Shown here: positions 14,278 to 21,353 of the stretch, one piece after another | How the letters are laid out: each line of letters begins with the position of its first letter | Position numbering within the stretch: the stretch's first letter is position 1 | Virus record (IMG/VR): IMGVR_UViG_3300010153_000151 | Location: 1 to 21,353 of that record | DNA: 21,353 bases | Source: a virus | Direction: 5' to 3' (one strand) | Program-made: the position numbers and the translations under genes | Notes under the pieces: generated by a model | Told to the model about the DNA's origin: nothing | The model's database searches: none | What the model saw: the letters and a program-made list of their open reading frames with translations, nothing else

Positions 14278-14307
14278 TAAAAGAAAAAGGGGCGGCTGGG
14301 CCGCCCC
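14278..14307 (-). terminator. Strong intrinsic terminator after the head genes
   Basis: On the minus strand GGGGCGGC (14307-14300), loop CCA and GCCGCCCC form a perfect 8-bp GC-only stem, followed by TTTTTCTTTT. It lies 6 bp past the cement-gene stop and just before the RBS of the gatekeeper gene. It should end much of the head-gene transcription and lower tail-gene expression. Confidence 0.93.
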
Positions 14308-20231: not shown

Positions 20232-20258
20232 TGGTTACCTTGATTACCTTGGTTACCC
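20232..20258. repeat. Three 9-bp tandem repeats across the terS stop
   Basis: On the plus strand TGGTTACCT, TGATTACCT and TGGTTACCC follow each other without a gap. On the minus strand this gives three in-frame TAA codons spaced 9 nt apart, the first of which ends terS. Confidence 0.85.
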
Positions 20259-20675
20259 TGCACTCTCAGCGAACATATCACCGCCAGCCCAGGTCAATGT
20301 GATCTGCCCGGAGCTTTGCTTATCCTCTGCCTTATCTCTTATGCCAAGCGGTTGCATCTGCCTGATGTGCTTGTCCTTGTGATCGCACTCAAGGCGTCTA
20401 CGCTGTACCTCTGCCATTGCAAGCTTGGGATCTTCTGGCAGTGAAGCTTCTACGATATCAATGATCTGATCGCGCATGACCTCGCATTGCAATGTCCTGG
20501 CTGTTCTGTACTTTGTGTATGCGTTCTCGTCCTCTTGAACCAAGCGCAATACTGTACGCCAGCTGGGCAGATCCTTTGTTCCATTGCATATGCGTGTAAG
20601 GCTTTCACCTTCTGCTATGCGCTCGCAGATCGTATCGAGCTGCTTTTGAGTTACGTTTCGCTTTGGCATTTGCAT
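20253..20675 (-). CDS. terS: Terminase small subunit (Sf6 gp1-like)
   Basis: The protein is 140 aa from the ATG at 20675 (MQMPKRNVTQKQ). An N-terminal helix-turn-helix spans QLDTICERIAEGESLTRICN to DLPSWRTVLRLVQED. Then comes a central KYRTARTLQCEVMRDQIIDI helix and VQRRRLECDHKDKHIRQMQP, matching Sf6-type small terminases, where this part makes the oligomer core. The subunit recognises phage DNA and delivers it to TerL. An upstream GTG at 20726 would add 17 residues, but it has no RBS and the extra codons lie inside a terminator hairpin. A second ATG at 20669 has a weak GGA. The gene is followed by the tandem-repeat stop and the 297-bp gap. Confidence 0.87.
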   Translation of the reverse strand: MQMPKRNVTQKQLDTICERIAEGESLTRICNGTKDLPSWRTVLRLVQEDENAYTKYRTARTLQCEVMRDQIIDIVEASLPEDPKLAMAEVQRRRLECDHKDKHIRQMQPLGIRDKAEDKQSSGQITLTWAGGDMFAESAG

Positions 20676-20679
20676 CCAT

Positions 20680-20716
20680 AAAAAAGCCAGCGTTGCTTTC
20701 GCAAACAACAGCTGGC
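20680..20716 (-). terminator. Intrinsic terminator / attenuator directly before terS
   Basis: On the minus strand GCCAGC (20716-20711), a bulged base, GTTG, a 10-base loop, CAAC and GCTGGC (20691-20686) form a 10-bp stem with one bulge, followed by TTTTTT (20685-20680). The terS ATG lies four bases beyond the T-run. Any RNA that carries terS must cross this element. Confidence 0.85.
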
Positions 20717-20753
20717 CAGTGTCCACAGGAGGAGGTAATACATGAACAACATT
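20680..20753 (-). ncRNA. Predicted short terminated leader RNA with CCUCCUCCU
   Basis: From the extended -10 element (20768-20760) a transcript would start near 20753 and stop at the T-run ending at 20680, giving about 74 nt. Its 5' half contains CCTCCTCCT (20737-20729) with no complementary GGAGG in the same RNA, so the motif should be single-stranded. Its 3' end is a terminator hairpin with six U. The form is that of a lambda 6S-type leader and of anti-SD sRNAs. It is inferred only from sequence. Confidence 0.4.
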
Positions 20754-20807
20754 TCGTTCAGTATATCATATTTCATACTACATTTCGTGCATTCGCGCAA
20801 GCACTAG
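20742..20807 (+). CDS. Possible 21-aa peptide with perfect Shine-Dalgarno
   Basis: A frame of 21 codons (MNNISFSISYFILHFVHSRKH) begins 5 nt after AGGAGGAGGT. The peptide is hydrophobic with a basic tail. I see no good plus-strand promoter upstream, and the same AGGAGG is explained by a CCTCCTCCT motif on the other strand. It is listed as a low-probability alternative reading of this segment. Confidence 0.2.
   Translation: MNNISFSISYFILHFVHSRKH
20749..20788 (-). repeat. 9-bp direct repeat flanking the terS promoter
   Basis: ACGAAATGT (minus strand) occurs at 20788-20780 and 20757-20749, 31 bp apart or about three helical turns. One copy lies at the -35 position, the other over the expected start of transcription. 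This fits a regulator-binding pair. Confidence 0.65.
20760..20768 (-). promoter_or_regulatory. Extended -10 promoter for the terS leader
   Basis: The minus strand reads TGATATACT, an extended -10 (TGn plus TATACT, one mismatch to TATAAT). No TTGACA-like -35 exists 16-18 bp upstream; a copy of the ACGAAATGT repeat occupies that place. This is typical of an activator-dependent or extended -10 promoter. Confidence 0.55.
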
Positions 20808-20826
20808 ATATATTTTGTCATATCCC

Positions 20827-20854
20827 TTGACGCTTTCTGTCCACTTGATAATCT
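20827..20854 (+). promoter_or_regulatory. Sigma70-type promoter for the small basic gene
   Basis: TTGACG (20827-20832), a 16-bp spacer and TAATCT (20849-20854), with TG one base before the -10. The predicted start near 20861 leaves a leader of about 20 nt containing GGGGA before the ATG at 20881. Confidence 0.6.
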
Positions 20855-20880: not shown

Positions 20881-20997
20881 ATGACAAGGCAAAAGGCATC
20901 AAAGCGCAAGCGCTCGCATTCGGATCAAGCAAGGCGCATCGTAAAAAGAATTAAGAAGGCAGCTGAGAAGAAATTAAAGAAAAAGGCAAAGTCTTAG
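20881..20997 (+). CDS. 38-aa highly basic protein, divergent from the late operon
   Basis: The frame encodes 38 residues from MTRQKASKRKRSH to KKLKKKAKS. Eighteen are Lys or Arg and only two are acidic. The second half (residues 16-37) looks like one amphipathic, lysine-rich helix. A frame 22 codons longer at the N-terminus exists, but the ATG at 20881 has GGGGA 6 nt upstream and a good promoter before it, so I prefer it. It is the only well-supported plus-strand gene here and meets the DUF6362-like gene end to end, the stops overlapping by 2 bp. It may bind nucleic acid; no family is recognised. Confidence 0.55.
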   Translation: MTRQKASKRKRSHSDQARRIVKRIKKAAEKKLKKKAKS

Positions 20998-21353
20998 CCA
21001 AAGAGCTCGCCCAGCGTGACAACCTCATCGTCCTGCGCCTTGAGCTTGTAGTACAGCCTGATCAGCGCATCTGTGTATCTGCGCTTTACCTGGCGTCCAT
21101 CTCTTAGCCCCTGCAACCTTGCCAGCTTCTGCCACTTTGGCCCACGCTCTCGAAACGCCGCGCTGTGCGCTACGGCCCAGACAATGCGCCTATCATCTGC
21201 ATCCATCTGCTCTATGCCAAGAACCAAAGCTTTCTCATAAGCAGTGATCTCTGGTGGTGAAGCCTTGGGCAATCCTACTGAAAAATCTGTGTAGCCATAT
21301 GCGGATCTTTCTTGGACGTACTCTGGCCAGCCGCACAGCTTCTGCTTTCGCAC
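20994..21353 (-). CDS. DUF6362-like helix-turn-helix protein (5' end at or beyond window edge)
   Basis: At least 119 aa. The first codon visible is a GTG exactly at the edge, so the true start may lie outside. The pattern matches DUF6362 proteins of alphaproteobacteria and their prophages: an early GWPEY, then PKASPPEITAYEKALVLGIE (29-48), DADDRRIVWAVAHSA, KWQKLARLQGLRDGRQVKRR (73-92) and ALIRLYYKL. The W-K---L-GL---RQVKRRY stretch is a helix-turn-helix-like end. It is the first minus-strand gene before the terS control region, where a late-gene regulator would be expected. Role as regulator is inference; DUF6362 has no established function that I know of. Confidence 0.7.
   Translation of the reverse strand: MRKQKLCGWPEYVQERSAYGYTDFSVGLPKASPPEITAYEKALVLGIEQMDADDRRIVWAVAHSAAFRERGPKWQKLARLQGLRDGRQVKRRYTDALIRLYYKLKAQDDEVVTLGELFG

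Follow-up and report, generated by a model that had tools for sequence, protein, structure and literature searches.

The analysed window is a stretch of 21,353 nucleotides from the IMG/VR virus record IMGVR_UViG_3300010153_000151. Its minus strand carries the structural genes of a podovirus-like phage, i.e. the terminase genes terS and terL, followed by genes for the head-tail connector, scaffold, capsid, tail tube and internal virion proteins. Judged by TerL, the nearest cultured relatives are the Pelagibacter phage HTVC010P and its kin with about 57% identity. The features that are important for the following considerations are all located on the minus strand and are given here in the direction of transcription:

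20994-21353, minus strand: DUF6362 gene, cut by the window edge, candidate Q-type antiterminator (Pfam PF19889, E 4e-8)
20795-20800, minus strand: TTGCGC, -35-like hexamer in the first promoter reading (TTG in nearly all of 43 non-redundant relatives)
20778-20794, minus strand: conserved 17-bp spacer GAATGCACGAAATGTAG, candidate binding element (information profile)
20772-20777, minus strand: first -10 hexamer TATGAA (almost no variation at T and A; distant clades have TAnnnT)
20760-20765, minus strand: second -10 hexamer TATACT with TGA extension (fixed offset from the first -10)
20743-20760, minus strand: inverted repeat TGAACGAAATGTTGTTCA, immediately behind the second -10 (weakly conserved in relatives)
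20728-20735, minus strand: CCTCCTCC, anti-Shine-Dalgarno-like leader motif (recurrence in leaders)
20685-20717, minus strand: terminator hairpin, 14 bp with one bulged U (folding, relatives, late-strand scan)
20680-20685, minus strand: terminator T-run TTTTTT (sequence)
20253-20669, minus strand: terS, Sf6-type small terminase (PF20901, E 1.4e-22; start from the alignment of relatives)
14289-14307, minus strand: second strong intrinsic terminator, within the late operon between head and tail genes (late-strand scan)

Relatives were gathered from IMG/VR by searches with TerL and DUF6362; all of them are metagenomic contigs and mutually related, hence the counts given below are not independent. 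Fifteen relatives of approximately 35 kb served as the larger-genome set. Only 119 of the 147 amino acids of the DUF6362 protein are encoded inside the window, and the complete gene is found on a longer, near-identical contig (L082:5917-6360). In its early region, this contig also encodes a C1/Cro-type helix-turn-helix protein (L082:843-1529, minus strand; PF01381, E 1.2e-5) beside a winged-helix protein, which is possibly the repressor of a temperate or formerly temperate phage. The DUF6362 assignment is above the curated threshold, because PF19889 scores 34-40 bits compared with a cut-off of 31, and it extends to all aligned relatives (30/30). Among 128 distinct DUF6362 copies, terS is the next same-strand gene in 116; the contig end truncates 11 others, and the last one (L222) lies on a contig that ends 1.9 kb past DUF6362, which is within the gap range of the other loci. 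Hence, terS follows in 116/116 untruncated distinct loci, i.e. the candidate regulator gene is linked to the late promoter as in the Q-type class, and exactly one DUF6362 gene occurs in each of the 15 genomes of about 35 kb. The first-pass annotation had noted that no recognisable Q gene is present here, which does not hold in practice: the adjoining edge-cut gene, which always stands ahead of the module, is the evident candidate for the Q role. On the opposite strand, a short and very basic ORF of 38 aa (20881-20997, plus strand; MTRQKASKRKRSH...) converges on DUF6362 and is also present in the related contig L002. Regarding terS, the alignment of relatives places the start most likely at the ATG at 20669, which has a GGA ahead of it (20677-20675), whereas the formerly assumed ATG at 20675 is not conserved.

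Between the promoter-like element and terS, a hairpin with six T (20717-20680) is situated on the minus strand. It had initially been described as a 10-bp hairpin; the hairpin and its T-run are real, but the stem comprises 14 bp with one bulged U, and this bulge caused a simple consensus scanner to overlook the structure. Folding of the 91-nt leader gave -30.1 kcal/mol (z = -4.0), with 0/200 shuffles as good, and no other site on the late strand of the window looks as much like a terminator as the hairpin before terS. Its conservation in related phages had been proposed as a check, and the hairpin was indeed found before terS across the clade. Using as score cut-off the value that is reached by 5% of dinucleotide shuffles, a stem with a T-rich tail was detected in 42 of 51 non-redundant terS-upstream regions; inspection added three further regions (L005, L098, L153), and a looser T rule gave such structures at 104/116 loci. 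The gap between the 3' arm of the hairpin and the start of terS homology has a median of 22.5 nt. Across relatives, the stems vary in sequence and loop length while the pairing is kept, and many two-sided, pairing-preserving changes occur between similar stems, which serve as illustration and not as a test, because the stems were chosen for pairing. Six lineages (L014, L049, L072, L073, L168, L170) kept a strong hairpin without the T-run, where it may have a role beyond intrinsic termination. The locus thus shows the order that characterises the Q-type class, a late promoter and then an intrinsic terminator ahead of the late genes.

The same promoter-hairpin module was found in 116 distinct relatives. 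The recurring element between DUF6362 and terS has a fixed spacing and consists of TTG, a 17-18-bp spacer, TAnnnn and a second -10-like hexamer. The -35 reads TTGACT or TTGACG in other clades, and AATGnnC...AAATGTnG represents the conserved spacer core, in which the window has the direct repeats AATGC (20793-20789) and AATGT (20784-20780) at a spacing of 9 bp. An exact search of IMG/VR with the 19-base core returned 14 contigs, and 14/14 matches are located just downstream of DUF6362 on the same strand. Among relatives of at least 8 kb, the best match to the promoter element lies far above the second best. A relaxed pattern gave a single match in each of 10 of the 15 genomes of about 35 kb, always just downstream of DUF6362, compared with zero matches for the reversed pattern in the same genomes; the remaining five carry more diverged variants of the element. 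In the six regions that were left unplaced by the profile scan, the sequences suggest that the stop codon of DUF6362 lies within the element or directly next to it, so that these regions, as far as inspected, seem to be no real absences. A conserved block between -35 and -10, one per genome where detected, provides a candidate binding site as in the Q-type class. Upstream of the late promoter, at approximately 20825-20845, an imperfect palindrome TTGACn7GTCAA recurs in relatives; it overlaps the -35 of a likely opposite-strand promoter and looks like an operator.

It had been claimed that an extended -10 about 45 bp before the hairpin is the only promoter-like element nearby. This extended -10 is present as TGATATACT (TATACT, 20765-20760), 43 nt ahead of the hairpin, but another promoter can be read 12 nt upstream, with TTGCGC (20800-20795), a 17-bp spacer and TATGAA (20777-20772). 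The second hexamer follows the first -10 by 12 nt in most relatives, as in lambda, and by 11 nt in a few lineages; in many relatives, it could be the promoter -10 itself. If transcription starts at the first -10, the second hexamer would occupy +1 to +6 and act as a sigma-dependent pause element, while the spacer block would be the protein's candidate site; this layout has been published for the promoters of Q21, AlpA and, with regard to the binding site, GafZ (PMC6606751, PMC9371919, PMC11150451). If it starts at the second -10, the spacer block would lie over the -35 region. In most relatives including the window, the second -10 is better than the first, and in the window's clade it is TG-extended; two distant clades possess a textbook first promoter (TTGACT-17-TAGTGT then TAAGAT; TTGCAC-17-TACAGT then CAAGCT). 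For the clade as a whole, we lean slightly towards a start at the first -10. Either way, the terminator is downstream of the late promoter. The logic suggested in the first-pass annotation, which resembles that of lambda PR'/tR', is well supported by the relatives, since promoter and terminator are both kept ahead of terS.

The short leader contains further motifs. CCTCCC occurs in 13 of 32 non-redundant leaders compared with 1.4 in mononucleotide shuffles. The core of the inverted repeat TGAACGAAATGTTGTTCA resembles the spacer block, forming a direct repeat 31 nt downstream, and the repeat could be a second binding site. A 33-codon ORF of the window runs across the hairpin (ATG near 20751), but leader-peptide attenuation was rejected because the corresponding frame in the near-identical L002 stops after 3 codons. 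A riboregulator had also been considered as the factor needed at this place; it appears unnecessary and unsupported, because the leader had no Rfam match at E <= 1 and no leader ORF is common to the window and L002.

The late strand harbours a second strong terminator after the capsid genes (14307-14289), a perfect 8-bp G+C stem (GGGGCGGCCCAGCCGCCCC) followed by a T-run, and 25 of the 30 relatives tested have a comparable strong terminator about as far from terL. A processive antiterminator would get past both terminators, whereas a simple activator would explain the passage of neither, although partial termination after a capsid gene would also be an ordinary means of setting protein ratios.

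In two AlphaFold models of DUF6362 (pLDDT 78 and 75), the N-terminus forms a helix, which is followed by a poorly predicted loop region; the C-terminal part is helical and its end resembles a helix-turn-helix. Among PDB fold matches, Q21 entries and sigma factors appear near the top for both models (E ~2.4-6), with 6p1c at rank 3 (E 4) and 6jnx_P at rank 6 (E 2.6); none of these matches is significant, and the predicted fold likeness is suggestive only. Searches of the DUF6362 sequence against solved structures returned nothing relevant or significant. The lambda Q family PF03589 is absent from the 15 genomes of about 35 kb, with lambda as positive control, and DUF6362 members gave no match to it; likewise, the Q21 family PF06530 had no match in these 15 genomes, with control genomes positive, and none in any DUF6362 member at E <= 0.1. 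The Q82 family PF06323 is not among the Pfam matches at E <= 0.1 of 30 DUF6362 members. A T7-type single-subunit RNA polymerase was found in 0/15 of the larger genomes, while the T7 positive control was detected. The pattern set used revealed no prophage relatives of DUF6362 in 84,980 genomes, and tblastn with three members identified no cultured phage with DUF6362 in the collection searched, the one match (E 0.2) being not significant. Within the literature set searched, DUF6362 is mentioned in no paper.

Collectively, the anatomy of the locus and the co-occurrence of its parts suggest that DUF6362 is probably a Q-type antiterminator that loads at a sigma-paused late promoter. According to this model, host RNA polymerase with the main sigma factor would start at the promoter that closely follows the DUF6362 gene, and would pause at the second -10-like hexamer, 12 nt further. 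Without the regulator, transcription would stop at the hairpin before terS and release a short RNA of approximately 74-86 nt. Once accumulated, the DUF6362 protein would bind the conserved promoter-spacer block and join the paused polymerase via its helix-turn-helix domain, converting it into a terminator-resistant form. The modified polymerase could then pass the terS hairpin as well as the second terminator after the capsid genes, such that the structural operon becomes transcribed. Binding, pausing and read-through are the inferred parts of this scheme. It is favoured by the strong terminator that separates promoter and terS and keeps its position although its stems, still paired, diverge, by the constant pairing with DUF6362 and the promoter block that occurs once per locus or genome beside it, and by the same order and spacing of -35, conserved spacer, -10 and -10-like hexamer at +12 as in lambda PR'. 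By analogy, the published Q21, AlpA and GafZ sites between -35 and -10 point in the same direction, and so do the lack of a T7-type polymerase and the helical protein with its C-terminal helix-turn-helix-like region. Against it stand the lack of significant sequence matches of DUF6362 to Q families or solved structures, the weak fold matches, and the six lineages with a hairpin but no T-run. Moreover, given the better second -10, the start may be at 20753, which would place the block on the -35 region in the manner of an ordinary activator.

The latter point leads to the most serious alternative, which we nevertheless regard as unlikely, namely that DUF6362 is an ordinary late-promoter activator, which occupies the block, here covering the -35 region that belongs to the second -10 (TGATATACT), and increases initiation, while the hairpin merely trims leakage and is overrun by strong late initiation. 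In the window's clade, the second -10 is much closer to the sigma-70 consensus than the first and is often TG-extended, and the block would then lie at about -47 to -23, overlapping the missing -35. However, if read-through were not controlled, one would hardly expect a strong terminator to be kept downstream of the phage's own late promoter throughout the clade, together with another within the operon, and distant clades with a textbook first promoter have a weak second hexamer. It is quite improbable that the terminator serves as insulator and attenuator, in which case the extent of read-through would depend on the leader RNA, on a small RNA or on a host factor, and DUF6362 would act elsewhere; such a role would fit the retention of the hairpin even where the T-run is lost and the recurrent CCTCCC motif, but no Rfam family matched, and the leaders vary widely in length and sequence, whereas the conserved part is the promoter-spacer DNA, always beside DUF6362. 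Least of all do we expect the short terminated RNA to be the main product, acting in trans as an anti-Shine-Dalgarno small RNA against mRNAs of the host or of early genes, so that late transcription would be a by-product, because, despite the CCTCCC enrichment over shuffles and the strong 3' hairpin, over half of the lineages lack the motif, neither a target nor a homologous small RNA was found, and the promoter-DUF6362 pairing would be left unexplained.

Returning to DUF6362 as an antiterminator, it seems on balance somewhat likelier than its contrary that the family represents a further, sequence-unrelated group of processive antiterminators, which arrived independently at the lambda PR' design and governs the late genes of uncultivated marine phages that form a widespread clade. 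With this proposal, a protein family of so far unassigned role gains a function that can be tested, and marine phages that are known almost only from metagenomes, a clade without any studied late regulator, gain a probable regulator of their late genes. If confirmed, the design of lambda PR' with spacer site, pause and terminator would be used by another unrelated protein family, and the module would provide a sequence rule for locating late promoters in viral metagenomes.

The Pelagibacter phage HTVC010P group, despite its TerL similarity, was rejected as comparator, because it has different genes upstream of terS; its records gave no DUF6362 by tblastn, and nothing resembling the hairpin, the T-run or the promoter element was seen there. 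A close parallel in gene order is the lambda Q/PR'/tR' system, with the succession of regulator, promoter, short leader, terminator and late genes. Reading the lambda sequence (J02459) from what we take to be the PR' start site, the promoter is TTGACT-17-TAAATT, and AACGAT begins 12 nt after TAAATT does, i.e. it has the same 17-bp spacer and the same 12-nt offset. Lambda differs in that its Q protein is unrelated by sequence to DUF6362, in the leader length of about 190 nt compared with about 74-86 nt here, and in the lysis genes that follow the terminator in place of terS.

Likenesses also exist to phage 21, where the Q21 site consists of 6-bp direct repeats 8 bp apart between -35 and -10 (PMC6606751), compared with repeats of about 5 bp that are 9 bp apart in the promoter spacer here. 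The distance between site and pause is similar, with the repeats here ending about 14 nt before the candidate pause hexamer, as is the protein size, and Q21 contains a sigma-region-4-like helix-turn-helix (PMC6606751); nevertheless, its family PF06530 has no sequence match to DUF6362 and the fold match is not significant. AlpA of Pseudomonas aeruginosa has a binding element between -35 and -10, a -10-like pause at -1 to +5 and bypasses terminators (PMC9371919), which by description corresponds to the layout with a start at the first -10, but it is a host regulator with a single 6-bp site. Finally, GafZ of Caulobacter crescentus is a sigma-like helix-turn-helix antiterminator of a phage-like structural operon, and its single target lies between -35 and -10 (PMC11150451); it works with GafY and IHF at a palindromic site, and by description its promoter resembles the DUF6362 module in the position of the binding site.
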